DNA from: a virus
Length of the DNA: 35,474 nt
IMG/VR virus record: IMGVR_UViG_3300020183_000244
Coordinates: 1 to 35,474 of that record
Direction: 5' to 3' (one strand)
The notes beneath the pieces were generated by a model. The model ran no database searches. It was not told the origin of the DNA and was given only the letters and a program-made list of their open reading frames with translations. Of the stretch, positions 3,355-19,959 are shown in pieces. A program made the position numbers and the translations under genes. How positions within the stretch are numbered: the stretch's first letter is position 1; the number at the start of each line of letters is the position of its first letter.

Positions 3355-6300
3355 ATGCAAGATAAAACATCGGTTTCTCGGTCAGTATCTACTCAAGTAC
3401 CAGAATTTATCAAAGAAGCTAATCCTTTATTTGAGAAATTTTTAGATGCGTATTATAGATCTCAAGAAAAAACTGGTGGTGCAATAAACATCATTAACAA
3501 CTTGACTGATTACTTAGATGTAGATAAGTTTGAATTGAACAAAATAAATGGTTCAACTACATTAATCGTACCTGTTGAAAAAAACACAAAAAACATTGAA
3601 GTAGAAAATACTGATGGTTTTCTAGATAGAGACGGATCTGTTATTATTGATGATGAGGTAATCTATTATGAGACACTTAGAAAATCACCAGATGTCTCAT
3701 TTGGTCCATCAATTTCATATTCAGAATTTAATAAGAAGTCAGTTATCTTATCAAATCCTTATTTGTTGTTCAATGGTGTACGAAGAGAGTTTGATTTAAG
3801 ATCAAACAATGAACCAATTTTTCCACCAAGCCCAAGGCATATAATTGCTACTTTATATGATAAAGTATTAGTGCCAGATGTCGATTATATTATTGTAAAT
3901 GATAAAATTAGATATACTACAGCGCCCAGAACATTTGATGCTTTGGGACTAGGTGATAATGCAACAGATATTTCAATCTATTATTTGAAAGGATTTGAGA
4001 CAAATCAAATCATGTCTATTACATCTACTGCATTAGGCAATCGTAAATTCAGATTGACACACACCATTGGTACTACTAGCACTCCATTTGTTGCATCATC
4101 AACTGTGCTTTCAATAGTTATTGTCGATGGAAAACTATTGATCCCAGAAAAAGAATATTCAATTAGTGGTTCCACTTTAATTTTAAATGTATCGGCATCA
4201 AATCCAGTAGTAGACTATGTTGGTTATATTAATTACACACCATTAACTGTCGGTAGTGGATGTGTAGCATATTCTGTAATTAATGATTTTGGTCAGGTAG
4301 AATCAGTTCGAGTTAGTAATCCTGGATCAAATTATAAAATTGAAAATGTCCCTCAAGTTAGTTTTAGCTCTCAGGTAGGATCTAATGCTACTGCAAAAGC
4401 ATTAGTTAATGGTATTCAAAAAATTTCTTTACTATTTGGCGGAACTGGTTATTCGCCATTAAATCCACCAAAAGTAATTATCCAAGATCCAACGAATCCT
4501 GATGGAGAAGTTCCAATTATTACATCAACAGTTAACTCTTCAGGTAATGTAGATTCATTAGAACTTGTTAATAGTGGAAGTGGATATGATTTTATTCCAA
4601 GAATTCAATTTATAAACCCTTTTGGTGCCGAGGTTGGATCCGCAACAATCAGCAGTACTGGTAGTATTACTTCTGTAAGTGTAGTTTCTAACGGTCTCTT
4701 CTACAGCACACCACCAAATATTTACATTGATCCCCCAAGTGGTTCAGGTGTACAATGTATCTTACAAGGAGTATTAAATTCCGATGGTGGTTTACAGTCA
4801 GTTACAGTTGTAAATCCTGGTAAAGGTTATTCAACATCGAATCCTCCTAGAATTAAGGTTATTCAACCAACAGGTGCTCAAGTTTTAGATGTTGAAGTTG
4901 ATAGTTTTGGGCGAGTAATTAATATTGAGATATTATCTGGAGGAAGTGGTTATGAAAACATTCCTAGTGTTTACATTGTTGATGATAGAAAAGATAATCT
5001 TGGTAATCCTATAGGAGGCGAAGGGGCAAAAGCAGTAGCAACGATTTTTAATAATCAAATTATTGATATCAGTGTTACTGATTTTGGTTCTGGGTACTCT
5101 TCTATAGACCCACCAAAAATTTATATTTCATCTCCAGAAGGAGCAAGAGCATCAGCAGAAATTGGTGATGGTCAAATAACTGGATTTAAGATCTTAAGTG
5201 CTGGTGATGGATATTCTAAATCTGAATTTGTTGGATGTAGTAGAGGTGTAAGCGGCATCGTTGACTATACAAATGATAATAAAGTTATCTTTTCAAATGA
5301 ATCTAAATCTGTTGCATCTCAACACAAAACAGGATCTACTGTAAAAAGTTTAGATTCGGTATTCTTTAAAGTTTTAATAAAGAGATTATTAAGTCAATAC
5401 CTACCTGGTTTATCTGATATTGCAATCGATAAACTAAATATTGCTAATGTTCTTAGAACAGTAAAAGATTTTTATGCATCTAAAGGAACACAATTTGCAA
5501 TCAAGTATCTATTTAACTTACTATACAATTCTCAAGTAGAAATTTCCTATCCAAAAGATCAAATTATAAAACCATCTGCATCAAGTTGGTCCGTTGATAC
5601 AATATTACGTGCTAAATTAATTTCTGGATCTGCTTTAAATTTGTCTAATGGACTACTAGTTCAAGAAGAAAGTGAAGTTGATACAAATATCAAGACAGCA
5701 ACAGCACTGATAGAAAATTATATTGCAATTCAAACTCCTAAGTATGATGTTTATGAACTTATTCTATCTGAAGAAAGTATTACAGGCAAATTTGTAATTC
5801 CATATAAAACCAAATTAACGGAAAAGGTTTCACCTACAGATGTAATTATTACTGTAGACTCTACCGTTGGATGGCCAGAAAGAAATGGAGAGATTTTAAT
5901 TAATGATGAGGTAATTCGTTATAAAGAAAAATCACTGACTCAGTTCATTGAATGTACTAGAGGAATTACAGGAGTTGCAGAAGAATACGATTCTGGTACT
6001 GAAGTCGGTTCAAATTTCTATCTAGTTGTTAACAAAGGAACTTCTAACGAAGTCGTTCTATCTGTCTTAGGAATTATTGAAGCAAATAAAACAACACTAC
6101 TTGACGATGGTAGTTATTATTTGAGTGGAGACAAATTAACAATTTCTAAATTAGGATCTACGGAAGACATTAAACTTCTTGATAGTTGGTTGTATAATGT
6201 TAAAAAATTACTTAAAGTTGTATCTATTGGATTTGGTGGTCTTAATGATACTACAGCAACGGTTTTATGTGAAAACAAACATGGTCTATTAATTGGAGAT

Positions 6301-9300
6301 CAAGTAACAATCTATGGTGCTAATCCAATTGTATTCAATGGTTCATTTTTAGTCACTTCAATTCCTACAGACTTTACATTTACATATACATTACCACAAC
6401 CAGCAAACCAGAATCCACAAGGCAACATCCTAATCTCTATAGATTTAAATAAAGGTAAAAGTGATTCTGCATCTATTAATACGTCAATTAGTAAATTTGC
6501 AACCAATATTCAAAATTCATTTTTTGATTCAAAGTGTGTATATGTTGCTGCTAGTGGTATTCCAAATTATAAGATTGGACCATTCTTAGGAACTGCACTT
6601 TTACCAGGCAATCAAAGAAAACTAAATAAATTTCCAAAAGTACCAGAGACCATTTCACTAAAAACACCAACAGTTCCAGGAGGAGTTGGTAGTTATGTTA
6701 ATGGTGTAAGTGTATGGAATTATAAATCGGAGGAAAAATTTCCTTTTGGTCCTCTAACCAGCATCGCAATTGTTGAACCAGGAAAAGATTATGATGCTGT
6801 TATACCTCCTGTGTTAACAGTATCTGGTGGTGGAGGTTCTGGGGCAACTGCTAGAGTAATCGTTAATGGTTCTATTAGCGATGTTGAGGTGTTAACCCAA
6901 GGTTCTGGATACACTACTTCTCCTCTAGTTTCTATTTCTGGAGGGGGAGGAGAAGGTGCTACAGCGACTGCAGTTATCACTAATGGAAGAGTATCAAGAA
7001 TTTTAGTTAATACTGGAGGAACAGGTTTTACTGCAGAACCAATTATTAATATTAGTGGTGGAGGGGGATCAGGTGCTACAGCAAAAGCAAGTGTAAGAGG
7101 TCCTGTAAGTAATGTAATCATTACCGCTAATGGTAGTGGATATATTGATAATCCAACAATTAGTTTAAGTAGTGGTGAGGGTGCTGCTGCTGAAGCTTAT
7201 GTCAATAATGGAAGATTGGTGTCTATTGCTGTAATTGCTTCTGGAAATAATTATACTACTGCTCCACGAGTAATTATAACTGGAGATGGTTTTGGTGCTG
7301 TGGCAAAAGCAACAATTTCTAGTGAAGGTGCAGATGCAGGCAGAGTCACTGGAATTACAATTTTAAATAAAGGTATTGGTTATAAAACAGGAACAACATT
7401 AATTAGACTAGAATCTATTGGTGAACTTGCTGAATTTAAGTCATCAATTTTTGAATGGACTTTTAACTTAAATGAGACCACAACCACTGATTATGCAAAC
7501 GGATCTATATTTGAAGGTTTTAATAAACAGTTTGGCGGTGAATATGGACACATCTCCAATCCTAAACAATTAAGATTTGTTCTTGGAGATAATTTACAAG
7601 TAGTTGATGGTCAAATAGTAGAAAAGGAAAGTGGTTTACAGCATTCTCCTATTATTGGATGGGCATTTGATGGTAATCCAATTTACGGACCATATGGATT
7701 GAGCGATCCAACTAATATTAATAGTGGTATAGCACAAATTAAAAGTGGTTATAGTTTAAAACCAAATCTTGTTTTTGATGAAATACTAAACTTAAATCCT
7801 GTTAGAATTGACGGACCACCACTATTACAATATCCTGCAGGAACTTTCATCGACGATTACGAGTATCTATTTAGAAGTGAGTCAATTTTCCTGGATGAGT
7901 ATAATGGGAGATTTACTAAAACTCCAGAATATCCAGATGGTATCTATGCATATTTTGTAACCATAAACACTAATGGAACTTCGGCTTTCCCTTATGTAGT
8001 CGGTCCAAATTATTACTCTGTTCCTGATGATTGGAACTTATCTCAATTTGCAGTTCAAGCATATATTCCAACTGGTATTGTTAGATATAGAGATCCTTTT
8101 GAAAATGTTGATATTGATGTTGAAAGACAAGCAAACGAAGAAACAAATGCACTTACTCTTGAAAACGGAGATGTTCTGACTTTTGAAGTCGAGGATGAAA
8201 ACAAAGATGGTATACTTACATCAGATGAGATCAATGATCCCAATATCATATTTGAAGAAGATAAATTAGAAATTTTTGATTATTTTCCTAGAATTGATGT
8301 CGCATCAAAAGTAGACATTGAAGTAGAAACTACAACTAAATTTGAAGATGCAAAAATTAGTGAATTCTTAATCGAAAATCCTGGAACAAACTATCAAGTT
8401 GGAGACGTACTAGTATTTGATGATACGGGTACAGATGGATATGGTGCATCAGCATCAGTGTCGAAAATTTTAGGTGAGACTGTTAGTAGTTATACTTACA
8501 GATACAATTCTACACTAGATAAATTTGAAGGTGTACTACAAACCCAAGTTCCACACAATTTAGAAGTTGGAGATTCGGTAGATATTTTAACTGTTCCTCA
8601 AATGGAACCTGCTAGTAAAACTATCAAGGTGATAACTGTCACTGGATTGGAAAATATCACAACTAATCAAAAAGGTGTTGGATATACAACAGATTTTCCT
8701 GCTGTAATTACTGTTGAGTCAAAAACTGGCAAAGATACACTGTTGACACCTGTGACAACTTCTACTGGATTAGTAAATGGTGTTAATATTGTTAATTCTG
8801 GTAATTCATATGATACTTCTCCCAGGATAAGAGTCACTCATCCACAAGTGGCAGCAAGAGCAAGTTATTTTGCAACTACGCTAGTTGGTGGTTCTGAATT
8901 TAAAATCATAAATTCAATTGTAGAATCAACAAAAGATGTATATGCAGTTGGTTATTTGAAATCTACAACTGGCGATAAGAGTGGAGTAATAATTAAATTT
9001 AATAGTCTAGGGACAATTGTTTGGCAAAAAAGCATTACACCTGTTTCTCCATCTGGGGAACTAAAGGATATAGAGTTTATTTCATTGTGCAAAAAAGGAA
9101 CTTCTATCTATGTTGTTGGAAACAACAGACCGAATCCAGCAATTACGAATGCATTTAATCCAGATATTTATCTTGCAAAGTATACAGAAAATACAACGGG
9201 AACAAATTGCACTTTATCTTGGCAAAAACAATATGGTGGTATCAGTGGAACAACAAGAGCTGATTACGCAACAGACATAACCGCATATAACGAAAACGTT

Positions 9301-12300
9301 GTAATTAGTGGTTATACATCAACTAATAGCGTTCACACTCATGATGCATTTGTAATGTACATTGCAAATAATGGAGACTCATTAGCAAAGAGAAAGATAA
9401 CTTCAGTATCTACAGAAGATAGATTCTATGCTGTTCGTGTTGACAGTTTTAATAACATCTACTTGGTTGGTAATGCTGGAAATAACCTTTTAATTGCTAG
9501 TGTTTATATTCAAGGAAATAAAATACTTATCAATTGGTTAAAACAGTATGTAATCACCGATGTCAAAATGACAGACTTGTCATTGAACATTGATGAGTTT
9601 AATGATCTATATGTATTAGGAACTCAACAAGTTGTCAGTAGTGGTCTTAGAACAAGATTGCTGCTATTTAAATTAAATACAGCAGGAACAGTCCAAGACA
9701 CATACGCTTACAATATAGTCAGCGATGGTGCTATTACTGCATCCAAATCTTCAATTGATATTTTTGGTGAAATTAATATTGCTGCCACGATTACAACTTT
9801 AACAAATAAAAAATATGTTTCATTTATAAAAGTTAAATATGATGGTTCTGTAATAAATGCAAATAAATTTGAATCTACAACATCTGCATTTGCATATGAT
9901 ACAACTTCATGCGTTTCTGATGTTTCTGGAGATCCATTTGTCTTGGGTTCATATTATTCAAATAGAACCCAATTCCTATTTGACGGTAGTGATTTTGTAG
10001 ATAAAACTGGTAGAGTTTCTAACTTAACAACCACTGGAACTGTTGCTGTCAGTACAACATCTCCTAAGTTTGGATCTACTGCATATGCTATTTCACTTTC
10101 AGGAAAAATGACAGCAACTACAAGTCTGTCTCTATCTTCTTGGACATTAGAGGGGTGGTTTAACTTCTCATCAGCAACAACAACTAAAAGTGAAATTAAT
10201 CTGCTCACAATTACTGATAGCACTAATACATTAGTTTTACAAATTAATAGCAGCACTGGAACAGATTATGGTAAAGCAAGACTTTTAGTAAATGCAACAG
10301 CAGGATCTTACAGCACACAAACTAATCTTGTATCATTGATGAATGCTGACTATGCTCATATTGCCGTAAGAAAAACATTTGCGAATGCCATTGCAACATA
10401 TACTGTATTTGTAAATGGCACTCAATATGTTCAAACAACAAGTTCTACTAATATTAATCCAACACAAATTGATTTTGGAAACACAACTGCTGCAGCGTCT
10501 AATCCAACAAGAGTAGATGATATTAGATTAAGTAATTATGCGATTACATATGGGGCATCACCATCTGCTGCACATGGAATTTACGACTACTCTCCTGCAT
10601 CTTCGTACATATTTAAATTTGATAAAACTTCAGATTCTGTAAGAATGGGGACATTATCATTTGCTACTTCTGGATTGATAATCTCTAGAACAGCGATGAC
10701 GGTATCAAATGCTCCTATAACTTCTACAACAAGTAATTACACTATTGCGTCTGAGGGATTCCAGGTTTTAGATTTTACAGAATCATCAATTACACAAACC
10801 TCAAATGCTGTAACAGTATCTCAAACTATTGATAACTGGTCAGCTAGGACCGCAACTGTTCCTTCTACAGGTGGTCAAAAACCAAAATTTACTGCAGAAT
10901 CATATGGAAAATTCTTCTTCAAAGTATTCAATACTGAGAAAGTAGATAATGTTAGAAAATTAACTTTAAATCAAACATTTAACGCTAATATTGGATCTAC
11001 AGTTATTCAAAAAAATACTTCAGGTGTGACCATTGCATCGTCAAAAGTAGTTGATGTTGATAAAGAAAACAAGCAAATTTTCACATCGTCTTTAACTGGG
11101 GAATTCCAAGAAAATACAGGTTCTATAACTTTCTCGGACAATCCTGTAAACGATCTTACAACTACATTTTCAAACGTAGTTAATACAACTCCAGGAACTT
11201 TTGTGCTTAATATACCTAGTGGAACTGCTGCCTTATTTAAACCATATTCTGAGCTTGATTATTCTGTGAGAATTGATGATGTAATTGCAGGATCTGCATT
11301 TTCCAAAGGATCTGTATATGCTCTTAGTTCTAATTATTTTTCATTCAATACCGCATATACTCAGGCAACAATTTCTGGATTAGCATCGGTAACTAAAATT
11401 ACCGTAATTACAAATCTAAACAAGACTTTCCAGATAGTTGATGAAGCATTTACTCAAGAGATGTATGTTAGAAGTGCAACTTCTCATTATTTAAATGTTG
11501 GAGATGTTTTATTCAATACGACTTCTCCACAATATGCTGCAGCAAATGGTTCTTTCTATGTTAAACAAATCATCAGTAAGAAAGAATTTATTTTTGATCT
11601 TAATACTACTCCATCAGCTGCAATAGGATCATCTATTACACTCACTATCTTTGTTAAGCATCCTATTCTTAGATTGATATTTGGTCAACAATATGTTTTT
11701 GATACATCTGATTCTTCTAATCTTGGTAGATTCTTATCATTCTACAGAGACAACTTAAATAAAATTGAGTATACATTTAAGAATATTATTAGAAAAGGTG
11801 TACCAGGAATAGATGAACCTGGAAGTTCACCATTTATTTCATTCAAAGTTACTGATGACGTATCAAACATTAGTTATTACGCTGACCCATCCAGAATAGG
11901 ATCACAAAGTCCTGTATCTCCACTATCCTATATTGATGTAATATACAGTCCTTACATTGGTAAATTTGAAGTCAAATCTTTAGAGGGGGCAACAGTTACA
12001 AGTGGTGCAACCAAAATTGTATTTGATTTAAAATATGAACCAGAAAAAGCAGCTCTTGCTAATCTAACCACATATACAACGACATCTCTAAAAGCTGTTG
12101 GATCTATTGGTGATATTCGTTTAGTAAGTGGAGGAGGATTCTACAAAAAACTACCAATTATTGTTGATATTCAATCATCAAGAAAAATTGAAAGAGTTGA
12201 AATTAATGAACCTGGCACAGAATATCAACCAGGACAATACTTTGGAGTTCCTATCCTTGGAGATGGTAATGGCGGTAAGGTAAGTATTACTGTTGATCCT

Positions 12301-15300
12301 GCATCAGATCCACCTGGTCAAATTATTGAAGTTTCTGTTACTGATCCAGGCAAAGGTTATACTACAGCATTCATTGATGTTGATGCTGTTGATGGAATTC
12401 TTGGTTCAGATCTTGGTGGATCTGGTGCAGAATTAACCGTGGTTATTCCACCAAAAGGAACAGGAGCATCTGTTTTTGTCAAAGGTGAAAGAATTGGAAA
12501 AATTAAGAAATTAAAGAATAATAACTTTGGATTTGATTATACTCATGATTATACTTTGCGTCCAGAGATTACCTTCCCAGTTAATTTACAATTAACCAGT
12601 ACAAGCATTCTAAGCAGCATTAAGGTGGTTAATCCTGGTTCAGGGTATACATCACCCCCAGAGGTTGTAATCACTGGTGGAGGCGGTTCTGGAGCGACTG
12701 CACAAGCAGTTTTAAGAAACGGTCGAATCTACGGAATCGTAATTAAAAATCCTGGTTCTGGATATACGGTTGAACCAACGGTTAAACTCAAATCTTCCTT
12801 TAACTATGTTGTAAACTTAGACCTTGGATTATTCCAATTTGCATATCCGCATGGAATACCGAATGGTGCTGAAGTCCAGTTTAATGTAATTGATGTTGGT
12901 GATGGAGCAGAATTTCCACTTTCTTCATTCGGATTCTTAAATGCAAATCAAATTTACTATGCAGTTTCTGGAGAAGGTGCTGGATTAGAAAATGATCAAA
13001 TCAGAATCGCCCTAACTCCTCAGGATGCAGAGACTGGAAACTACATTACTTTTGTAAATACTGGTACTGGTAGACAAGTTATTCTTACAGATTCATTTGG
13101 TGGTTCTGCAGAAGCAGTGTTGGAGACAGCAAGATTCTTGTTTGGTGAAACTGTTTTCCAAGGTCAAACCTTTGAAACTGCAACAGCAGTTGGGTTTGTA
13201 TCTGAAAATGATGGTTGGCAGATCGGTCCCAGATTGTTAAAACTAATTAATTATACTGGAGTTTTTGAAATTGGTCAAAGAGTAAATGGTTTAATATCCA
13301 AGTCTAGTGGTATTATCGGAGATATCAATATTGCGAAAGGAGTTTTAGAAGTAGATTCTATCACTAAAACTACAGGAAAATTCTTGGATGATATTGGCAA
13401 ACCAAGTGAGATTGTTCAGAAAGTTCAAGACTCATATCTATATCAAATGTTCTCTTATAACATCAAGAGTCCAATCTCGATTGATCAATGGAAGAAAGTT
13501 ATAAATGATACTATTCATCCAGCTGGTTTTAAAATCTTTGGAGAAATTGGAGTTTCTGGTGGAGGAAAAGGATTAACAGATAGAACTGATTTTGAACTTG
13601 TAAAGAGTGTTAATTTAATTGAGAGTTCGGTTGTCTCTAACGTTGATAGTTTTGCTTTAGTAGAACCAGTTTATAGTGAGTTTGATAATACACAAGTTTT
13701 GTTTAGAACTAAGAGATTGACATCATCTGAGGAAATTCTGACTTCTGTTGTACAGTCATTAGATAACATAGCGAATTTGTTTGATGGTGCCAGAACAGTA
13801 TTCCCATTAACGATTGATGGATCACCAGTTATTGCTCAGGCAAGTCAATTTATGATAGTCATAAATGGTATCTATCAAGCTCCAGGTTTTGCATTTACTG
13901 TTCAATCTGGAAATATTGTTTTTACAGAACCACCTCCTGCACCAACAAAAATTAGTTATGCTGTTTTAGATTTAGAATTTAAAACAACATCCTTGATTAC
14001 AATGTCTAATGTTAGTGGTATCATTCCAGAAATAGGAAATACCATTCGTGGATTGGTTTCTAACGCCACAGCTACTGTTGCAAATTCAACATCTACCACA
14101 TTGACTGTGTTTAATATTACAGGAGCATTTGTTGCAAATGAAACTATAATTTCACCAGCAACAGGACTAAATGCTATTCTCGATAGCATTGTACCTGTAG
14201 TAAATGCCAATGTCTTGAGGTTCCAAGAGAAAATTAAAAACTTACGTGGAAAAACCGCAATTGTTGAAGAAATCAATCTAGATCTAGCTACCAATATTCA
14301 AACTAATAGAATTGTAATTAGCAAAACATCAGGCACATATGATTCACCATCAGGTCTTCTAGACATGAAAATTGATGATAGTTTCGTTAGTGCTGAAACA
14401 GGCGTCGTTGCCAGAATTACTAACATTTCAACTTATAGAGATCCTAATGTTTATATTGTTGTAAATCCTGCTTTTGCATCTACAGGTAGTTTCTTAGTTA
14501 ATGAAGTTGTAAAAGGTGCAACGTCAAACGCAACAGGTGAAGTTGTTTTGTGGAATCCGTCTATTAGAAGATTGATTCTAAAATCAACAAGCACGGCCGA
14601 TTTTGTACCGAATGAAATTATTAATGGTTTAACATCTTTAGCACAATTTAAAATTTTAACAACAACAGAAATTGAACCAACAACAACATTAATCATCAGT
14701 GATCCTAGCAGTTTCTATGGTTTACTATTCAACAGAATTGTTAACCCAACTGTTCCTAATGCCATTGTAGATGATATTAGTAAGAGTGTAATTGAAGTTG
14801 TTAATTTAGATGATGACGATGTTAATGTTGATTCAAACTTCCCAGAATTTGAAGAGGTACAAAATATACTATTAGATTATTCTAGTAGCAGTAGAACTCC
14901 AAAGGTAATCACAGTAAATGGTAATGCTGGTTCATCAACTTTACAAAAGAAATTTGGATCTGCATCTTTAGTTCTAGACGGAAATGGAGATTATCTACAA
15001 ATATCAGACGCAACAGAATTTGATCTAACAACTTATACATTTGAAGCGTGGATTTATTTGCCAACCGCACCTTCTGAGTATTCAATGATATTTGCCAATG
15101 TCGGAGAAAACTCGTATTGGGGACTCCGTACTGTTGCTGGGAACACACGTCTGACCTCATATGATGGCACTACAATCAATGAACAAACAACAGGAACAAG
15201 TATTCCGTTAAATACTTGGACTCATGTTGCTTGGTCTAGAACTGGTAATCAGGTTAGATCATTTATAAATGGAGAATTAGTACACACTGGAACTAGCACT

Positions 15301-18300
15301 GCTACTCCAAATGCGACTGGACTTACAATTGGTTATTCAGTTAATTATTCAAACCAACATTTCTTCAATGGATATATTGATGAAATGAGAGTCTCAAAAG
15401 GAATTGCTAGATATGTTGCTACATTTACACCACCTCTAGTAGCATTTGTTAATGATGGTAATACTGCATTACTCATACATGCAGATTCCAATCCAATCCA
15501 AGATGATGGTGGATTAGTTGATGGTGTTGAAGAAGGGTCATTTATCCAAAATCAAGTTTTTGAATATACTAATGAAAGTGGAGATTTTACTCAGAACGAA
15601 GAGTTGATTTCTAGAAAATTATCATATCATACTCGAAGCGGAGGAAATTTCCAAATCGGTGGAACAATAACAGGTGGCGGTGCAACTGCTCAAATCATAG
15701 GTGTTAATTATGCACTAAATCTTTTATATCTTGGTAGTAAGACAGGATCATTTACGATTGGCGGTACAATCACATCAGGATCTGTTAGTGCTGTGGTGTC
15801 TGCATATTTAGAAGTTCCTGTTTTGGCAAATCAAGTATTCACCGCAACCAATAAGTTTATTACTGGTTATATTGACAATGATACTAGACATAGGTACAGA
15901 GATGCTGCAAATCTAATTAGATTGAATTCTGGATATATTGTAGATGAAGCAGTGGGTAGATTAAAAGATCGCTATCCAGATTTAGTTATTCCTAGAGATA
16001 CTGCAACATCCCAAGATGGTACTGCTAGATGTAAATTAGACGCTGCTTTATTGTTAGAGGGTGTTATCTTAGATATAGAAAAAGGAGGCACCTATAATGC
16101 TACATCTGCGGCGAGACAATATCTAGATGCAAATGGCGGAATTAGATTTATTGAACTCCAAGTTCTTCACAGTGCTTATACTCATGAGCAATTGAATTTG
16201 CTTTGTCAACAAGCAGTAATTGGAGAACTAAGTGAGACACCCGAGTATTCTGACAGATTCCCAGTTCCACCTATTGATATTACTATTGATTCTTTAGATT
16301 GTGCTGATGTTAGAAGTGATATAGACACATTGTGGGGTTTGATTAATGAAGTTATTGCTCCTACTGGAGATGTTTACAAAGATGCTGGAGACTTACTCTG
16401 GTTTAACAGAACATTTATTGCTGATGAAGCTGTAGCACTTACAACTCAATATTTCACATACACTCTAAATGGCGTTCAATATAGTGCTTTTGAATATCCA
16501 GGCGGTGCTGCTGGAATAGATAAGTGTAAGAGAGATCTCAAAGAGCACATCATACCAGCGATTATTTCTGATTTGGTTTCGGGCGGAAATGTAAACATCA
16601 TAAACGCAATGAAGCAATATGTTAATGAAGATGAAGATGTCTTGCACGTTAAGGATGAACTTCTACCAACTATCTACGCTATTGAGCAAACAAAGAAATT
16701 ATGTCAATATGCTGTAGATAATTGGATTATTACTGGTACACAAAATACTGAGTATCAACCAACGTTTGCAAGTAATGCAAATAAGTACAAAGATACTACA
16801 ATCACTGTAGACGATGGGGAGTATGGTGGTCATTGTGCCGATGTTAAATCTGCAATCGAAGTCTTGTTTACATTAGGAATTGGTATTCTTCTCCCAGAAA
16901 GAGAGCAATATATTGTTTCTGGTAGATTCCTTGATGCTGGAGATTTGATTGATGCAAATGCTCTGTTAATTGCTGATGTAGCTGTTGGTAGAATGTTGGC
17001 AAACTTCCCTGGTTTCACAGTACCTGGTGGTGGTCAAAACTGTAAAGATGATGTTCTAGACATTTTAAATGCATTAACATATAACCTAAGAAATGGTGGC
17101 AACCAACAAATATACGATGCTGCTGGTTTATACCTAAGTGCAGTTTTGGGAGGAGGATCTCATGTTTCAGGTGAAGAAACTCAATCCATCTATGTATTGA
17201 ATCAAGCTAGAGATCTTGCAATTCAGGCAATGCGTAATGAAACCATTACTATTGACGGGCATTCTACAAGAACTCAGGTTAAAGATTTAACCATCACGGT
17301 TGCTGCTGATAACTGTGCTCAGGTAGCATCATCAATTACCACCTTAATGGCAATTGTTGTTCAGGCAATACAAAATGGAAACTTGACTGGTATTACAAGA
17401 ACTACTGACAGTCCAACAAATATTGCATATAGAGATGCTGCTAAATTAATTATGTTTAATAAAGAATATATTAAAATTGAAGCATTACAAAGAACTCTTA
17501 ATAATTTCCCTGGATTTAATGTTCCTGGTGGAAATACTAAGTGTCTAAGAGACATTGGTTATATTGTTGATGCAATTGTATATGACTTGTTGACAAATGG
17601 AAATAGTGCAATTTATGCTGCGACATCATCGTACATTGACGCTGCAACAGGAACCATTGCCTCTCTAGAAGGAGAATTGATTCAAAGTATCTTTGCATAT
17701 CAGCAAGTAAGAGATTTAATGAAACTAGCAATATCCGAGACTTTACCTTCTCCAGCTACTGCATCTGGTTTTTATGCTTACACTGACAGTGCAATCGCAC
17801 TTTCTGGTTCAATTCTAACTGAACTTCAAAACTTTGTCCAAGATAAAATGGCAATTTTATTAGGTACACTTAATAATACAAATTATCTTATTGCTAACAA
17901 TATTGTCAGTACAACTTCGGTTGAAGTCCCTACTATCATATATCCAACTAGACCACTCAGAACACCAATTGAAGGATCTCTGAGGGCAGGTGAATCATTA
18001 TATGGAACAGTATCTGGTCAATATGCTGAGATTGAGTCTATTACTACAAATAGGGCATCAATTAAAACTATGCTCATGAGATTTGAAGTTGATTTCACTG
18101 TTGCATCAGAGAAATTTGCAGTTGGAAATGTATTAAGTATTCAAGGTCAACCATCAAGAACATGCACCGTATATTCTGTAGAATATGCAGAAAATATTAA
18201 TTACATTGATGTCATTGTTAATACTGGACCATTTAGTGTCGGTAATACTTTGTTGTCAAATGTTAATTTTACAGCTACAATTGAGGCAATGAATGATAGA

Positions 18301-19959
18301 TTCCAACTAACTGAAGTAATCGGTTCATTTACTGCAGGTCATTATTTTAGACCATCTAGATCAACTATTTCTGGAACAGTAATTGCATATCAATATAATT
18401 CGTCTCCAGTTCTATCCAATCTTGGTGGAAAACTAACCCTAGAAACAGAATCTCTAGTCGGACAATTTGATGTGAGTACTGTTGCTTACTCATCGTTAAG
18501 CAGAAGATACGTTGATGTATTAGGTTATCAAGGAACACAAATTTCAATTGGGGATTTAATAAAAACAACAAAAATTTATAGATTAACTGTAGATCTATTG
18601 GGTTCTACTCCTAATGAAAATCAATTCCCTGTAGGAGAACTACTTGTAAATATTGTTGATAATCTTCCACAAGGAAAAAGTGCAACTATTTTAAATGTAT
18701 CTATTCCAGATGGGTTGCCTGCATCCTCTCCAACTAGATATATTTACATTGGCAATATTGAAGATGATGATAATTTTGAAATCAATGAAACTGTAGCATA
18801 CTTCCAAGGTGCTGATCAATATCCATCTGGAATGGCTTATGTAGCAGCAGTCACTGAAACAAATTCAGTCTCTTTTGCAAGAGTTGAAAAAGTTCTTCAA
18901 ATTGGTACTGGATATAGAATTTTCCTCAGTTCAGTTAAAGGAACAGTTGCACAATATGCTCAAATTATTGGTCCTAACAACTATCGGGCACCAATTCAGT
19001 CAACAACTGAAATTGTTGGAAGAATTAGCAGATCTTTCAGAGGATTTGATGGTGTTCAAACAACATTTAAACTAACATCTAATAATGGAGTTCCATATTT
19101 TCCAAATGAAGATGGTCATGTGTTGATATTTGTTAATGGTATTCTTCAACCAGTAGAATTTGCATACACTGTGTTTAGTGATGTAATTCAATTCTTAGAA
19201 CCACCAGAAATTGGAGCATCTTTCAATGGTACATTTGTAGGTAAGTTAAGACAGTTAGATGACATTTCATTTGAGTTTGATTCTTTGAGAAATAGTTTCA
19301 ACTTAAAACTCAATGAGGTATTCTATTCCTTGACTATTACCGAGGGTATTCAATCAACTAACATCAAACCAGAAAATAATATTATTGTTTCATTAAATGG
19401 TGTGTTGCAAGAACCAGGAGTTGCGTTTGAAATTGTTGGTTCTAGGATAAACTTTGCTGAAGTTCCAAGAGCAGGAAGTGTATTTGTTGCTTATTCATAT
19501 ATTGGTTCTGATGCTGATGTTATTGCCGCAACAGTAATACCTCCTATTGAAGCAGGAGATAAACTTGAAATTGAAGGTGAGGATGTTGATAGAACAGTTG
19601 CAGTTGTTGAGTCTTCAAACTCATTGGTCACATTTGATTATCTAGGATCTATTTTTGGAAAGGGTGCTGCTGCTATTGCTAATTTAACTTCGGGCACAGT
19701 TACAAATGTACAGTTGACTGCAGGTGGTGATGGATATACTTCTAGACCTACAGTATCTTTAAGTTCTTCAAGTGGATTTGACGCTTCTGTTAAAGCAATC
19801 GTTGGTATTTCTAGGGTAGATGTTGTCAACAGAGGAACAGCATACAAGTATCCAGAAATAGAAATTGTCACCAATATTGAAGAATTTGATGAAGTAGACA
19901 CATTTGATTCATCAAGTGCAACATTTGATTTAAGTTCCGTCACATTTGATGCAACATAA
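3355..19959 (+). CDS. 7: Giant (5,534 aa) baseplate wedge protein, gp7-like core with huge insertions
   Basis: One uninterrupted frame, roughly 0.6 MDa, directly after gp6 where gp7 (P2 gpI) is expected. gp7-like islands are residues about 1-45 (LFEKFLDAYY), about 670-760 (KDFYASKGTQFAIKYLFNLL at 704-723; T4 gp7 has FYSTKGIEASYKFLFKVLYN) and about 3290-3410 (IHPAGFKIFGEIG at 3387-3399; T4 has FVHPVGFGF). Between and after them lie: GSGY beta-repeat arrays (about 318-640, 1140-1350, 1675-1835, 2920-3150, 5450-5510); a YHYH domain (1366-1556); an EF-hand-like loop (1614-1625); a beta-propeller (1846-2203); LamG-like domains (2206-2405, 3839-4031); four helical repeats (4177-4800); and VNG-Q-P beta modules (3480-3560, 5225-5390). 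T4 gp7 has 1,032 residues. Start choice rests on TAGGAAAA at about 3343-3350. The structural role is firm; the gp7 name rests on remembered motif matches and position. Confidence 0.85.
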   Translation: MQDKTSVSRSVSTQVPEFIKEANPLFEKFLDAYYRSQEKTGGAINIINNLTDYLDVDKFELNKINGSTTLIVPVEKNTKNIEVENTDGFLDRDGSVIIDDEVIYYETLRKSPDVSFGPSISYSEFNKKSVILSNPYLLFNGVRREFDLRSNNEPIFPPSPRHIIATLYDKVLVPDVDYIIVNDKIRYTTAPRTFDALGLGDNATDISIYYLKGFETNQIMSITSTALGNRKFRLTHTIGTTSTPFVASSTVLSIVIVDGKLLIPEKEYSISGSTLILNVSASNPVVDYVGYINYTPLTVGSGCVAYSVINDFGQVESVRVSNPGSNYKIENVPQVSFSSQVGSNATAKALVNGIQKISLLFGGTGYSPLNPPKVIIQDPTNPDGEVPIITSTVNSSGNVDSLELVNSGSGYDFIPRIQFINPFGAEVGSATISSTGSITSVSVVSNGLFYSTPPNIYIDPPSGSGVQCILQGVLNSDGGLQSVTVVNPGKGYSTSNPPRIKVIQPTGAQVLDVEVDSFGRVINIEILSGGSGYENIPSVYIVDDRKDNLGNPIGGEGAKAVATIFNNQIIDISVTDFGSGYSSIDPPKIYISSPEGARASAEIGDGQITGFKILSAGDGYSKSEFVGCSRGVSGIVDYTNDNKVIFSNESKSVASQHKTGSTVKSLDSVFFKVLIKRLLSQYLPGLSDIAIDKLNIANVLRTVKDFYASKGTQFAIKYLFNLLYNSQVEISYPKDQIIKPSASSWSVDTILRAKLISGSALNLSNGLLVQEESEVDTNIKTATALIENYIAIQTPKYDVYELILSEESITGKFVIPYKTKLTEKVSPTDVIITVDSTVGWPERNGEILINDEVIRYKEKSLTQFIECTRGITGVAEEYDSGTEVGSNFYLVVNKGTSNEVVLSVLGIIEANKTTLLDDGSYYLSGDKLTISKLGSTEDIKLLDSWLYNVKKLLKVVSIGFGGLNDTTATVLCENKHGLLIGDQVTIYGANPIVFNGSFLVTSIPTDFTFTYTLPQPANQNPQGNILISIDLNKGKSDSASINTSISKFATNIQNSFFDSKCVYVAASGIPNYKIGPFLGTALLPGNQRKLNKFPKVPETISLKTPTVPGGVGSYVNGVSVWNYKSEEKFPFGPLTSIAIVEPGKDYDAVIPPVLTVSGGGGSGATARVIVNGSISDVEVLTQGSGYTTSPLVSISGGGGEGATATAVITNGRVSRILVNTGGTGFTAEPIINISGGGGSGATAKASVRGPVSNVIITANGSGYIDNPTISLSSGEGAAAEAYVNNGRLVSIAVIASGNNYTTAPRVIITGDGFGAVAKATISSEGADAGRVTGITILNKGIGYKTGTTLIRLESIGELAEFKSSIFEWTFNLNETTTTDYANGSIFEGFNKQFGGEYGHISNPKQLRFVLGDNLQVVDGQIVEKESGLQHSPIIGWAFDGNPIYGPYGLSDPTNINSGIAQIKSGYSLKPNLVFDEILNLNPVRIDGPPLLQYPAGTFIDDYEYLFRSESIFLDEYNGRFTKTPEYPDGIYAYFVTINTNGTSAFPYVVGPNYYSVPDDWNLSQFAVQAYIPTGIVRYRDPFENVDIDVERQANEETNALTLENGDVLTFEVEDENKDGILTSDEINDPNIIFEEDKLEIFDYFPRIDVASKVDIEVETTTKFEDAKISEFLIENPGTNYQVGDVLVFDDTGTDGYGASASVSKILGETVSSYTYRYNSTLDKFEGVLQTQVPHNLEVGDSVDILTVPQMEPASKTIKVITVTGLENITTNQKGVGYTTDFPAVITVESKTGKDTLLTPVTTSTGLVNGVNIVNSGNSYDTSPRIRVTHPQVAARASYFATTLVGGSEFKIINSIVESTKDVYAVGYLKSTTGDKSGVIIKFNSLGTIVWQKSITPVSPSGELKDIEFISLCKKGTSIYVVGNNRPNPAITNAFNPDIYLAKYTENTTGTNCTLSWQKQYGGISGTTRADYATDITAYNENVVISGYTSTNSVHTHDAFVMYIANNGDSLAKRKITSVSTEDRFYAVRVDSFNNIYLVGNAGNNLLIASVYIQGNKILINWLKQYVITDVKMTDLSLNIDEFNDLYVLGTQQVVSSGLRTRLLLFKLNTAGTVQDTYAYNIVSDGAITASKSSIDIFGEINIAATITTLTNKKYVSFIKVKYDGSVINANKFESTTSAFAYDTTSCVSDVSGDPFVLGSYYSNRTQFLFDGSDFVDKTGRVSNLTTTGTVAVSTTSPKFGSTAYAISLSGKMTATTSLSLSSWTLEGWFNFSSATTTKSEINLLTITDSTNTLVLQINSSTGTDYGKARLLVNATAGSYSTQTNLVSLMNADYAHIAVRKTFANAIATYTVFVNGTQYVQTTSSTNINPTQIDFGNTTAAASNPTRVDDIRLSNYAITYGASPSAAHGIYDYSPASSYIFKFDKTSDSVRMGTLSFATSGLIISRTAMTVSNAPITSTTSNYTIASEGFQVLDFTESSITQTSNAVTVSQTIDNWSARTATVPSTGGQKPKFTAESYGKFFFKVFNTEKVDNVRKLTLNQTFNANIGSTVIQKNTSGVTIASSKVVDVDKENKQIFTSSLTGEFQENTGSITFSDNPVNDLTTTFSNVVNTTPGTFVLNIPSGTAALFKPYSELDYSVRIDDVIAGSAFSKGSVYALSSNYFSFNTAYTQATISGLASVTKITVITNLNKTFQIVDEAFTQEMYVRSATSHYLNVGDVLFNTTSPQYAAANGSFYVKQIISKKEFIFDLNTTPSAAIGSSITLTIFVKHPILRLIFGQQYVFDTSDSSNLGRFLSFYRDNLNKIEYTFKNIIRKGVPGIDEPGSSPFISFKVTDDVSNISYYADPSRIGSQSPVSPLSYIDVIYSPYIGKFEVKSLEGATVTSGATKIVFDLKYEPEKAALANLTTYTTTSLKAVGSIGDIRLVSGGGFYKKLPIIVDIQSSRKIERVEINEPGTEYQPGQYFGVPILGDGNGGKVSITVDPASDPPGQIIEVSVTDPGKGYTTAFIDVDAVDGILGSDLGGSGAELTVVIPPKGTGASVFVKGERIGKIKKLKNNNFGFDYTHDYTLRPEITFPVNLQLTSTSILSSIKVVNPGSGYTSPPEVVITGGGGSGATAQAVLRNGRIYGIVIKNPGSGYTVEPTVKLKSSFNYVVNLDLGLFQFAYPHGIPNGAEVQFNVIDVGDGAEFPLSSFGFLNANQIYYAVSGEGAGLENDQIRIALTPQDAETGNYITFVNTGTGRQVILTDSFGGSAEAVLETARFLFGETVFQGQTFETATAVGFVSENDGWQIGPRLLKLINYTGVFEIGQRVNGLISKSSGIIGDINIAKGVLEVDSITKTTGKFLDDIGKPSEIVQKVQDSYLYQMFSYNIKSPISIDQWKKVINDTIHPAGFKIFGEIGVSGGGKGLTDRTDFELVKSVNLIESSVVSNVDSFALVEPVYSEFDNTQVLFRTKRLTSSEEILTSVVQSLDNIANLFDGARTVFPLTIDGSPVIAQASQFMIVINGIYQAPGFAFTVQSGNIVFTEPPPAPTKISYAVLDLEFKTTSLITMSNVSGIIPEIGNTIRGLVSNATATVANSTSTTLTVFNITGAFVANETIISPATGLNAILDSIVPVVNANVLRFQEKIKNLRGKTAIVEEINLDLATNIQTNRIVISKTSGTYDSPSGLLDMKIDDSFVSAETGVVARITNISTYRDPNVYIVVNPAFASTGSFLVNEVVKGATSNATGEVVLWNPSIRRLILKSTSTADFVPNEIINGLTSLAQFKILTTTEIEPTTTLIISDPSSFYGLLFNRIVNPTVPNAIVDDISKSVIEVVNLDDDDVNVDSNFPEFEEVQNILLDYSSSSRTPKVITVNGNAGSSTLQKKFGSASLVLDGNGDYLQISDATEFDLTTYTFEAWIYLPTAPSEYSMIFANVGENSYWGLRTVAGNTRLTSYDGTTINEQTTGTSIPLNTWTHVAWSRTGNQVRSFINGELVHTGTSTATPNATGLTIGYSVNYSNQHFFNGYIDEMRVSKGIARYVATFTPPLVAFVNDGNTALLIHADSNPIQDDGGLVDGVEEGSFIQNQVFEYTNESGDFTQNEELISRKLSYHTRSGGNFQIGGTITGGGATAQIIGVNYALNLLYLGSKTGSFTIGGTITSGSVSAVVSAYLEVPVLANQVFTATNKFITGYIDNDTRHRYRDAANLIRLNSGYIVDEAVGRLKDRYPDLVIPRDTATSQDGTARCKLDAALLLEGVILDIEKGGTYNATSAARQYLDANGGIRFIELQVLHSAYTHEQLNLLCQQAVIGELSETPEYSDRFPVPPIDITIDSLDCADVRSDIDTLWGLINEVIAPTGDVYKDAGDLLWFNRTFIADEAVALTTQYFTYTLNGVQYSAFEYPGGAAGIDKCKRDLKEHIIPAIISDLVSGGNVNIINAMKQYVNEDEDVLHVKDELLPTIYAIEQTKKLCQYAVDNWIITGTQNTEYQPTFASNANKYKDTTITVDDGEYGGHCADVKSAIEVLFTLGIGILLPEREQYIVSGRFLDAGDLIDANALLIADVAVGRMLANFPGFTVPGGGQNCKDDVLDILNALTYNLRNGGNQQIYDAAGLYLSAVLGGGSHVSGEETQSIYVLNQARDLAIQAMRNETITIDGHSTRTQVKDLTITVAADNCAQVASSITTLMAIVVQAIQNGNLTGITRTTDSPTNIAYRDAAKLIMFNKEYIKIEALQRTLNNFPGFNVPGGNTKCLRDIGYIVDAIVYDLLTNGNSAIYAATSSYIDAATGTIASLEGELIQSIFAYQQVRDLMKLAISETLPSPATASGFYAYTDSAIALSGSILTELQNFVQDKMAILLGTLNNTNYLIANNIVSTTSVEVPTIIYPTRPLRTPIEGSLRAGESLYGTVSGQYAEIESITTNRASIKTMLMRFEVDFTVASEKFAVGNVLSIQGQPSRTCTVYSVEYAENINYIDVIVNTGPFSVGNTLLSNVNFTATIEAMNDRFQLTEVIGSFTAGHYFRPSRSTISGTVIAYQYNSSPVLSNLGGKLTLETESLVGQFDVSTVAYSSLSRRYVDVLGYQGTQISIGDLIKTTKIYRLTVDLLGSTPNENQFPVGELLVNIVDNLPQGKSATILNVSIPDGLPASSPTRYIYIGNIEDDDNFEINETVAYFQGADQYPSGMAYVAAVTETNSVSFARVEKVLQIGTGYRIFLSSVKGTVAQYAQIIGPNNYRAPIQSTTEIVGRISRSFRGFDGVQTTFKLTSNNGVPYFPNEDGHVLIFVNGILQPVEFAYTVFSDVIQFLEPPEIGASFNGTFVGKLRQLDDISFEFDSLRNSFNLKLNEVFYSLTITEGIQSTNIKPENNIIVSLNGVLQEPGVAFEIVGSRINFAEVPRAGSVFVAYSYIGSDADVIAATVIPPIEAGDKLEIEGEDVDRTVAVVESSNSLVTFDYLGSIFGKGAAAIANLTSGTVTNVQLTAGGDGYTSRPTVSLSSSSGFDASVKAIVGISRVDVVNRGTAYKYPEIEIVTNIEEFDEVDTFDSSSATFDLSSVTFDAT
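4306..5220 (+). repeat. GSGY beta-repeat array 1 in the giant protein (about 8 copies)
   Basis: Residues about 318-640 repeat a unit of about 40-50 residues: a hydrophobic strand, then N/S-x-G-S/T-G-Y, then a short loop, P-x-hydrophobic-strand, and a Gly/Ala stretch. Examples are VSNPGSNYKIENVPQVSF, LFGGTGYSPLNPPKVII, LVNSGSGYDFIPRIQF, VVNPGKGYSTSNPPRIKV and ILSGGSGYENIPSVYI. Divergence between copies is high, so this is an old duplication. It lies between the first and second gp7-like islands. Confidence 0.8.
5356..5635 (+). other. gp7-like core island 2 in the giant protein
   Basis: Residues about 668-760 read FFKVLIKRLLSQYLPGLSDI, then a helix leading to KDFYASKGTQFAIKYLFNLL and then YPKDQIIKPSASSW. 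This matches the gp7/P2-I segment in which a helix and a KG(T/I) turn lead into an aromatic-rich helix (T4 gp7 FYSTKGIEASYKFLFKVLYN). This island probably packs against gp6 in the wedge trifurcation. Confidence 0.75.
6772..7400 (+). repeat. GSGY beta-repeat array 2, near-regular GGGGSGATA copies
   Basis: Residues about 1140-1350 carry six units with a period of about 35-40 residues. The first three contain the near-identical block SGGGGSGATA (or GEGATA), giving a GC-richer, repetitive DNA stretch. Strand-turn motifs include VLTQGSGYTTSPLVSI, ITANGSGYIDNPTISL and VIASGNNYTTAPRVII. These copies are far more alike than array 1, so they look more recently amplified. They probably form a regular beta-solenoid-like rod. 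Confidence 0.85.
7450..8022 (+). other. YHYH-type domain inside the giant protein
   Basis: Residues about 1366-1556 contain HSPIIGWAFDGNPIYGPYG (starting at 1430), then LDEYNGRFTKTPEYPDGIYA, then FPYVVGPNYY. These three blocks are the signature of the YHYH family, an extracellular domain of unknown function found in marine bacteria and eukaryotes. The name-giving region is represented by EYGHISNP rather than a full YHYH. This is a family call from motifs; the biochemical role is unknown. Confidence 0.75.
8890..9963 (+). other. Beta-propeller (SBBP-like) in the giant protein
   Basis: Residues about 1846-2203 hold seven evenly spaced strand motifs about 50-64 residues apart: YAVGYLK, YVVGNNR, VISGYTS, YLVGNAG, YVLGTQQ, NIAATIT and FVLGSYY. 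Several are preceded or followed by a strand ending in W-Q-K (IVWQKSI, LSWQKQY). This is the pattern of bacterial SBBP / delta-60-type propellers with the D-x-Y-x-x-G blade core. Seven copies suggest a seven-bladed propeller, a typical binding scaffold. Confidence 0.7.
9970..10569 (+). other. LamG / concanavalin-like domain 1 in the giant protein
   Basis: Residues about 2206-2405 begin FDGSDFVDKTGR and contain SSWTLEGWFNFSS, HIAVRKTF, YTVFVNGTQYV and VDDIRLSNYAITYG. The run W-x-x-E-x-W, then H-hydrophobic-A, then V-x-V-N-G, then D-D-hydrophobic-R-hydrophobic-S is characteristic of LamG-type jelly-roll domains, which often bind glycans. It follows the propeller directly. Confidence 0.7.
12118..12800 (+). 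repeat. GSGY beta-repeat array 4 in the giant protein
   Basis: Residues about 2920-3150 include LVSGGGFYKKLPIIVDI, INEPGTEYQPGQYFGV, VTDPGKGYTTAFIDV, VVNPGSGYTSPPEVVI and IKNPGSGYTVEPTVKL. The last two flank another GGGGSGATAQA block like those of array 2. The array lies just upstream of the third gp7-like island. Confidence 0.75.
13222..13590 (+). other. gp7-like core island 3 in the giant protein
   Basis: Residues about 3290-3410 run QDSYLYQMFSYNIKSPISID, then WKKVINDTIHPAGFKIFGEI. This corresponds to the C-terminal gp7/P2-I segment that ends in the H-P-x-G-F motif (T4 gp7 has IRFVHPVGFGF). It is separated from island 2 by about 2,600 residues of inserted domains. Confidence 0.72.
14869..15447 (+). 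other. LamG / concanavalin-like domain 2 in the giant protein
   Basis: Residues about 3839-4031 contain FGSASLVLDGNGDYLQIS, LTTYTFEAWIYLPT, NTWTHVAWSRTGNQVRSFIN and GYIDEMRVSKGIARY. This is a textbook LamG_3-type sequence, clearer than domain 1. It lies in the C-terminal extension beyond the gp7-like core, so it is likely surface-exposed and may bind polysaccharide. Confidence 0.85.
15883..17755 (+). repeat. Four tandem Cys-containing helical repeats in the giant protein
   Basis: Residues about 4177-4800 contain four units with landmarks at 4183, 4343, 4527 and 4694 (periods 160, 184 and 167). Each has a (Y/F)-x-DA-x-x-L helix (YRDAANLIRLN, YKDAGDLLWFN, FLDAGDLIDAN, YRDAAKLIMFN). Each also has a conserved Cys in ARCKLD, DKCKRD, QNCKDD or TKCLRD, and then a helix to a GGN or NGN turn. 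A second Cys before the next unit (DCADV, HCADV, DNCAQV) is present in the first three. Units 1 and 2 have a third (LLCQQA, KLCQYA). Fold unknown to me; predicted mostly helical. Confidence 0.8.
19030..19510 (+). repeat. Two tandem VNG-Q-P beta modules near the giant protein's C-terminus
   Basis: Residues about 5225-5390 have two copies of a short fibre module: FDGVQTTFKL, then VLIFVNGILQPVEFAYTVF and IQFLEPPEIGASF; and next IIVSLNGVLQEPGVAFEIV with INFAEVPRAGSVFVAYSYIG. A third copy lies at about 3480-3560 (FMIVINGIYQAPGFAFTV, IVFTEPPPAPTKISY). This NG-x-x-Q-x-P module is common in phage tail fibres. Confidence 0.75.

Follow-up and report, generated by a model that had tools for sequence, protein, structure and literature searches.

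The window analysed here, that is, the whole stretch of DNA under study, is an IMG/VR virus record of 35,474 bases (IMGVR_UViG_3300020183_000244). Its larger genes are all read in one direction and encode, in this order, gp25, gp6, a protein of 5,534 amino acids, a gp9/gp10-like protein, a subtilase-family protein, a protein of 703 amino acids, gp8, a DUF4815 protein and the start of a fibre protein. The third of these is the subject of this study, and it is probably a giant form of the T4 baseplate wedge protein gp7. Its open reading frame (ORF) starts with ATG and has no internal stops. The initial annotation, made from the sequence alone, had described a single frame of 5,534 codons directly after gp25 and gp6, and the ORF as well as both neighbours were recovered here, the latter by Pfam and phmmer (the window gp6 matches the gp6 chains 9f4a_AX, E 1.9e-28, and T4 5hx2_D, E 6.3e-25). 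The slot of the giant protein is directly 3' of gp6 and upstream of gp8, with three other genes before gp8; the order gp25-gp6-giant-...-gp8 is common to cyanophage relatives, and that in T4 is gp6-gp7-gp8. Judged by the gp7 island described below, the nearest named relative is Synechococcus phage S-H38 (71.5% over 200 amino acids), whose gp7 slot holds a protein of 5,512 amino acids and whose gene order matches that of the window. S-H38 being the nearest named relative and its gene order the same, we regard the record as a genome fragment from a T4-like cyanophage.

The identification with gp7 is carried by three short stretches of the giant protein, here called core islands (Table 1). By exact motif search FLDAYY is found at residue 29 (F26-x-x-F29-x-x-AYY), FYASKGT at 706 and IHPAGFKIF at 3387. 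The last two positions are exactly those given in the initial annotation; the N-terminal motif, put there at about residues 24-33, is present, its placement holding only to within one or two residues (F26/F29). Hidden Markov models (HMMs) of the islands were derived from 10 cyanophage proteins, those of T4, Mendera, phiM7 and Melnitz being kept out, and 1,258 shuffled or reversed sequences served as controls, the best of which reached E 0.17, 1.5 and 0.47 with islands 1, 2 and 3, respectively, and 1.6 with the joined model. The joined model detected the outgroup gp7-slot proteins of Melnitz (E 1.5e-51), phiM7 (9.7e-35) and Mendera (4.1e-30) and also T4 gp7 (1.3e-10). The single island models, too, each detected the protein in the gp7 slot of these three outgroup phages, and islands 2 and 3 matched T4 gp7 (Table 1); island 1 alone gave no significant match to T4 gp7 (E 0.16), four T4 ORFs being as good or better per domain. 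Island 3 has one strong match in each of the 10 cyanophage gp7 proteins.

Profile alignment with hhalign extends these results. A gp7-core profile led by the Stenotrophomonas phage Mendera aligns with T4 gp7 at residues ~646-760 in one piece (probability 94.8, E 5.4e-8), and this alignment holds the N-terminal helix and FYxxKG together, placing island 1 at about T4 residue 650. Islands without any match to gp7 had been named beforehand as the outcome that would speak against the gp7 identity; both the HMMs and hhalign reach T4 gp7. The landmarks also stand in the order proposed at first. However, the matched parts of T4 gp7 are residues ~646-760 and ~863-890 and not its N-terminus, and no counterpart of its first ~645 residues was shown in the giant protein. 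Further matches point the same way: phrog_964 matches island 2, and a phmmer search of the PDB with the window's island returned only two matches at E<=1, both of them to T4-type gp7 chains and weak (0.013 and 0.069). With PF23786, a family named baseplate wedge subunit, the giant protein scores 20.5 bits (E 3.5e-4), the cut-off being 27. The family of the giant protein is a large one: among 50,697 phage records, 500 match the 200 residues surrounding FYASKG at E<=0.01, 454 of them over at least 80% of that length.

Copy number and size were followed in a panel of 26 records, comprising 20 T4-like cyanophages, the podovirus P-SSP7, HTVC008M, Melnitz, phiM7, Mendera and T4. With T4 kept out of its model, the core island was found in 25 of them (T4 gp7 at E 1.4e-9) and had no match in P-SSP7. 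Of the 25 T4-like records, 24 contain a single copy of it, and only S-RSM4 adds a further, marginal match (E 0.009). A second gp7 gene, which according to the initial annotation would contradict the identification, is thus not apparent in the relatives, and this single-copy result applies to them, the window genome being seen only within its own record. In P-HM2 (GU075905) two genes are annotated as gp7 (46318-59682 and 70550-77821), and the core island is in the first only.

The gp7 open frames span 3,048-7,352 amino acids in the 20 T4-like cyanophage records and 524-1,047 in the five T4-like records with other hosts (HTVC008M, Melnitz, phiM7, Mendera and T4). Among the proteins themselves, those outside cyanophages measure 503 (Mendera), 896 (Melnitz), 1,006 (phiM7) and 1,032 (T4) amino acids. 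The smaller cyanophage ones have 3,274 (Syn1), 4,225 (ACG-2014f), 4,454 (P-HM2, by annotated coordinates), 5,195 (P-SSM2) and 5,422 (S-CREM1) amino acids and the larger ones 5,512 (S-H38), 5,534 (window), 6,395 (S-RIM8), 7,124 (P-SSM7) and 7,312 (P-SSM4). Within the panel, giant gp7 is a cyanophage trait. For an ORF of S-CREM2 (77594-83407; 1,937 amino acids by these coordinates) PMC10665884 gives 91 unique peptides from the proteome of the virion, which speaks for a virion location of the protein. The ORF stands after two inner wedge proteins and is on this ground taken for the gp7 slot, so the size gap, seen from outside the panel, is not empty. Giant gp7 is already annotated in public records and not new to the window genome: the label 'gp7, baseplate wedge initiator' is found in P-SSM2, P-SSM4, S-SM2 and P-HM2.

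The sequence comparisons show a small conserved core, ~250 residues long in T4 gp7 (~646-890), that extends in the giant protein across residues 1-3,410 because repeat and domain blocks occupy its two loops; more than 2,100 further residues follow the core. The small gp7 proteins hold the same three islands closer together, which makes insertion in the cyanophage line the simple reading. At the sequence level the additions comprise a YHYH domain, a LamG-type domain, beta repeats of the G-x-G-Y type and four phycobiliprotein-like units, in which the Cys and Asp positions for bilin are kept (Table 1). The initial annotation had spoken of recognisable extracellular-type domains filling the gaps, which agrees with YHYH and LamG; the most unusual inserts, the phycobiliprotein-like units, were not named there. 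No Pfam family matches the G-x-G-Y blocks at E<=0.01, and no PDB match to them is significant. Together with the GGGGSGATA repeats they match PHROG families of baseplate wedge (the family of the window gp8), head closure and hub; these PHROG matches fall within the repeat blocks and were set aside as evidence of identity.

Table 1. Genes and features of the window that bear on the giant gp7 protein (aa, amino acids; E, E-value)
Feature	Position	Strand	Basis
gp25 baseplate wedge protein	340..753	+	PF04965, E 1.4e-16
gp6 baseplate wedge protein	753..3281	+	PF21379, E 1.1e-15; phmmer to gp6 chains
Giant gp7, 5,534 aa	3355..19959	+	Core islands; phrog_701 in all four scanned pieces
gp7 core island 1, aa 1-60	3355..3534	+	HMM to Melnitz 7.6e-11, Mendera 6.1e-7, phiM7 6.2e-5
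First G-x-G-Y beta-repeat block, between islands 1 and 2 (limits approximate)	4252..5244	+	Motif positions; AlphaFold2 model (pLDDT about 83-94) mainly beta
gp7 core island 2, aa 631-766, FYASKGTQFAIKYLF	5245..5652	+	HMM to T4 gp7, E 2.9e-8
Second block, GGxGY / GGGGSGATA repeats (limits approximate)	6802..7494	+	Motif positions; PHROG gp8, head-closure and hub matches
YHYH domain, aa 1392-1540	7528..7974	+	PF14240, E 2e-28
gp7 core island 3, aa 3326-3410, IHPAGFKIF	13330..13584	+	HMM to T4 gp7, E 3.5e-4
LamG / concanavalin-like domain, aa 3875-4015	14977..15399	+	PF13385, E 1.7e-23
Phycobiliprotein-like unit 1, Cys aa 4226	15892..16218	+	PF00502, 19.1 bits, E 2.2e-5, below cut-off; row of profile A1
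Phycobiliprotein-like unit 2, Cys aa 4391	16375..16716	+	Profile A1 (own row); no PF00502 at E<=0.01
Phycobiliprotein-like unit 3, Cys aa 4563	16924..17235	+	Predicted fold; row of profile A1; no PF00502 at E<=0.01
Phycobiliprotein-like unit 4, Cys aa 4730	17425..17733	+	PF00502 above cut-off alone; row of profile A1
gp9/gp10-like protein	19987..21129	+	PF07880, E 4.1e-7
gp8 baseplate wedge protein with GGxGY-type stretch	24981..26513	+	PF09215, E 3e-17; phrog_438 among others

The four phycobiliprotein-like units lie in tandem at residues 4180-4793. With the phycobilisome family PF00502 (cut-off 22.2 bits) the C-terminal piece of giant gp7 scores 42.2 bits and unit 4 alone 23.6. Over 14 well-known control genomes the family matched Synechococcus elongatus alone, and of 14 virus records eight matched at E<=0.01, three of them above the cut-off. 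A profile, A1, was compiled from 27 phage units of the window, S-H38, S-CREM1, P-TIM40, S-RIM8, P-SSM7 and P-SSM4, and these seven source phages match A1 by construction; left out were, among others, four units without Cys (two of P-TIM40, one of P-SSM7 and one of P-SSM4), and two Cys-less P-SSM4 units were retained. Scanned singly against Pfam at E<=1, 14 of the 27 units match PF00502 (best 9.8e-6), and any other family matches one unit at most. Against all PDB sequences A1 has 83 matches at E<=0.01, and 59 of the best 60 listed are phycobiliproteins, the exception, ranked first, being a designed repeat protein whose score is the sum of weak matches. A1 also matches all seven cyanobacterial genomes tried, which were selected for holding phycocyanin, at 33 places at E<=0.1, and the 20 loci retained from these matches all have ORFs positive with a phycobiliprotein HMM.

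A larger set of units, gathered without A1, consists of 271 unique full-length units (381 matches, 118 loci). The HMM of this set matched 165 of 588 ORFs (120-300 amino acids, duplicates included, from loci around phycocyanin genes or A1 matches), and all 165 were positive with the phycobiliprotein HMM. Aligned by hhalign, the 271 units and the 165 phycobiliproteins agree with a probability of 96.3 and E 1.7e-9 over 111 columns, Cys and Asp being aligned. The AlphaFold2 model of units 3-4 is nearly all helical, with a predicted local distance difference test score (pLDDT) of 83.4 and a predicted template modelling score of 0.61. Foldseek returns phycobiliprotein chains or 8u0f, a phycobiliprotein derivative, in 49 of the best 50 rows, and VIA-align in all of the best 50 rows listed (Z up to 17.9). 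The unit 3 model superimposes on PC577 with Z 17.6 and a root-mean-square deviation of 2.2 A over 139 residues. The VIA-align rows span model residues 10-184, i.e., unit 3, and unit 4 is therefore barely tested by them; for unit 3 the predicted phycobiliprotein-like fold is supported.

Residue conservation was read on the A1 columns across the 271-unit set. Asn12 is found in 264 of 264 units, Asp three positions after the Cys in 250 of 270 and the Cys itself in 243 of 270; the Arg of the C-x-R-D motif, at Cys+2, is kept in only 67 of ~270. The corresponding phycobiliprotein residues are Cys84, Asp87 and Arg86, the last beside the bilin. All four window units keep both the Cys84 and the Asp87 position, and two of the four have Arg or Lys at +2. 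Counting units that cover the Cys column, the Cys is kept throughout in S-H38 (4/4), S-CREM1 (5/5), S-RIM8 (3/3), S-PM2 (9/9), Syn1 (7/7), P-HM2 (5/5) and ACG-2014f (2/2) as in the window (4/4), and in part or not at all in S-RSM4 (10/11), P-TIM40 (6/8), P-SSM7 (2/3) and P-SSM4 (0/3). Over these twelve phages the totals are 57 of 64 for Cys, 61 of 64 for Asp and 37 of 64 for Arg or Lys at +2.

The unit region has matches (E<=1e-3) in 359 of 50,697 phage records, the first word of whose names is Synechococcus in 280, Cyanophage in 60, Prochlorococcus in 18 and 'Marine' in one. In the panel, units are present in 18 of the 20 T4-like cyanophage records and in none of the six others; seven of the 18 supplied rows of A1, and of the 13 records independent of it 11 match. 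In 15 of the 18, units are carried in the gp7 frame, as judged by frame length. Syn1, ACG-2014f and S-PM2 have them only in large frames other than gp7, and in S-PM2 these are proteins annotated as tail fibre and short tail fibre, a location that suggests adhesion-type proteins. Several frames of environmental cyanophages (loci L120, L121, L124 and L128) have eight matches each to a two-unit query, several of them ~125-130 amino acids apart. In the S-PM2 record NC_006820 (165800-170700, locus L351) many tRNA genes are annotated inside the short tail fibre gene, overlapping the units; ARAGORN finds none there and the tRNA annotation is therefore probably shifted.

We consider it probable that in the giant protein a T4-like cyanophage has its gp7 orthologue, with the core in the wedge and the added blocks forming an adhesive or structural corona. 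The gp7 core would join gp6, gp8 and gp10 in each wedge as usual, and the added blocks would stand out from the baseplate rim; their corona would be fixed in place, serve adhesion and structure and touch the cyanobacterial surface before tail contraction. This arrangement is suggested by analogy with the T4 baseplate and by the domain types. The phycobiliprotein-like units would most likely serve in adhesion or structure, as stable helical spacers or binding modules, and are perhaps descended from a host antenna protein.

Several observations weigh against this view. Island 1 is linked to T4 only via Mendera, phiM7 and Melnitz as intermediates. The HPxG island aligns weakly by hhalign with T4 gp7 residues ~863-889 (probability 21.7, E 1e-3), which is not above the best other T4 ORF (whole profile, probability 44.3, E 2.3e-4; the controls were the 25 longest T4 ORFs, each also shuffled, the shuffles giving probability 0.6 at most); the case for island 3 is made instead by the HMM match, set against 0.47 in the controls, and by the island order. 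In the AlphaFold2 model of residues 1-890 (52 rows; overall pLDDT 79.3) islands 1 and 2 are poorly predicted: they lie mostly at 30-55, residues 651-680 at 65-79, and structure therefore gives no support for the core. A Foldseek search with this model gave nothing under E 0.011 and was not used as evidence for the core: the first row is a baseplate chain of 1,031 residues from a Klebsiella phage (probability 0.06), the T4-type baseplate chains 5iv5_BJ and 5hx2_A appear at probability 0.02, and a capsid chain of Vibrio phage VP1 has probability 1.00 over 89 columns at E 0.12. As to the units, PF00502 detects only two of the four in the window at E<=0.01, the Foldseek search with units 3-4 ranks haemoglobin first with nothing under E 1e-3, and P-SSM2 and S-SM2 have a giant gp7 without A1 unit matches. 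The literature search gave no baseplate structure of a T4-like cyanophage; the placement at the rim is conjectural.

It is conceivable, but unlikely, that the resemblance of the units to phycobiliproteins reflects convergence of globin-like helices, with Cys and Asp as mere packing or capping residues. The haemoglobin row just mentioned would fit this, as would the span of the PDB sequence matches, only ~60 residues, and the failure of units 2 and 3 to match PF00502 at E<=0.01. In a tree of 61 columns the phage units and the phycobiliproteins form two separate groups (SH-aLRT 97); its rows were 40 + 40 random picks after thinning from 264 + 163, and its result is flagged for the small number of columns and for long branches that meet. 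Convergence is, however, hard to reconcile with specificity for one family across Pfam, PDB and cyanobacterial genomes, with the agreement of the Cys, Asp, Asn and P-x-G positions, and with the fact that 358 of the 359 matching phage records bear the name Synechococcus, Cyanophage or Prochlorococcus.

A further proposal is that the conserved Cys of the units binds bilin, supplied by the host or by phage bilin genes, so that the virion responds to light and light gates its adsorption; this we regard as rather improbable. Slightly less probable still is its fuller form, in which bilin-binding units of baseplate and tail fibres serve as a light sensor on the virion and confine adsorption to daylight, with phage genes for bilin synthesis and for lyase-like proteins partly charging the particle. 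The frequencies of Cys and Asp given above speak for bilin binding, as does S-PM2, where all nine units have the Cys and eight have Arg or Lys at +2. S-PM2 adsorption is reportedly light-dependent, and P-SSM2 is said to adsorb in the dark and not to replicate there, and both of these would agree with the proposal. The Cys, moreover, is single in 169 of 224 C-x-x-D units (this pattern excluded 47 of the 271), and 69 of the 224 have no other Cys from -45 to +5 residues, which makes a local disulphide unlikely as the general reason for its conservation, distant partners being possible. Against these stand the loss of the Arg of C-x-R-D in most units and the case of P-SSM4, whose three units all lack the Cys. 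On the supporting side, records positive for CpeT all have units (14/14), a count that ignores lineage; among the 18 unit records CpeT has no match in four, one of them the window fragment. Bilin synthesis genes as a simple correlate of the units were rejected: P-SSM2 encodes both a bilin reductase (PF05996) and a heme oxygenase (PF01126), yet it has no units. Bilin in virions is not known to have been reported. A point in favour is that model fits put the dark adsorption of P-HM2, which has six unit matches, near zero, and that constant adsorption was not rejected for the podovirus P-SSP7, which has no units (PMC7112961); such phenotypes, however, are small in number and confounded with the lineage of the phages. 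A paper of 2010 spoke of a mystery as to what phage pcyA and pebS do (PMC3037559).

That the giant protein is instead a tail-fibre-like adhesin in the place of gp7, the true gp7 lying elsewhere in the genome, is very improbable: ~95% of its length is not gp7-like and many relatives are annotated just as 'structural protein', but all three core islands are present in order, and the complete T4-like panel relatives have no other strong core match, by which the idea is refuted in those.

Seen as a gp7 orthologue with a corona, the giant protein resembles T4 gp7 (PDB 5hx2_A) in its place between gp6 and gp8 and in the core islands; T4 gp7 differs in having only 1,032 residues, short core loops and the first ~645 residues noted above. 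With the other cyanophage gp7 proteins (P-SSM2, P-SSM4 and S-H38; phrog_701) it shares slot, size class and islands, whereas the added domains vary by phage, those of P-SSM2 being without phycobiliprotein-like units. The units themselves are like phycobiliproteins (PF00502, i.e., phycocyanin, phycoerythrin and allophycocyanin) in the predicted fold of unit 3 and in the Cys84, Asp87, Asn and P-x-G positions; unlike them, they are tandem inside a virion protein, have mostly lost Arg86 and form a separate clade.

Other genes of the window show further features. The subtilase-family protein (PF00082, 21131-22801) lies inside the baseplate gene cluster, and likewise in S-H38. At 34304-35473 a fibre protein starts with a major tropism determinant (Mtd)-type N-terminal domain (PF18454), the gene being cut by the record end. 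The GGxGY/GGGGSGATA repeats recur in gp7 (4252-7494), gp8 (24981-26513) and, by eye, the 703-residue protein (22826-24937), and their PHROG matches extend to head-closure and hub families of other phages; apparently they are a beta module common to several virion proteins.

No description of phycobilisome-type domains in phage structural proteins was found in the open-licence literature searched, including the accessible parts of PMC10665884, PMC9602691, PMC2984593, PMC3037559, PMC7112961, PMC7238727, PMC5082946 and PMC9229316. Within that literature, and as far as the searches show, phycobiliprotein-like units in phage virion-type proteins are undescribed. What this work adds is that giant gp7, itself already known, is tied to the T4 core, with a size jump confined to cyanophages within the panel, and that most of the T4-like cyanophages examined carry a phycobiliprotein-like module in large proteins of virion type. 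Two questions are thereby made testable, namely why some cyanophages adsorb only in light and what purpose the phage bilin genes serve. Even without pigment binding, a tail module that reuses a host antenna fold would be an uncommon instance of domain capture, and the antenna-like domains would matter to the biology of these viruses if the particle thereby senses light or sticks to its host.

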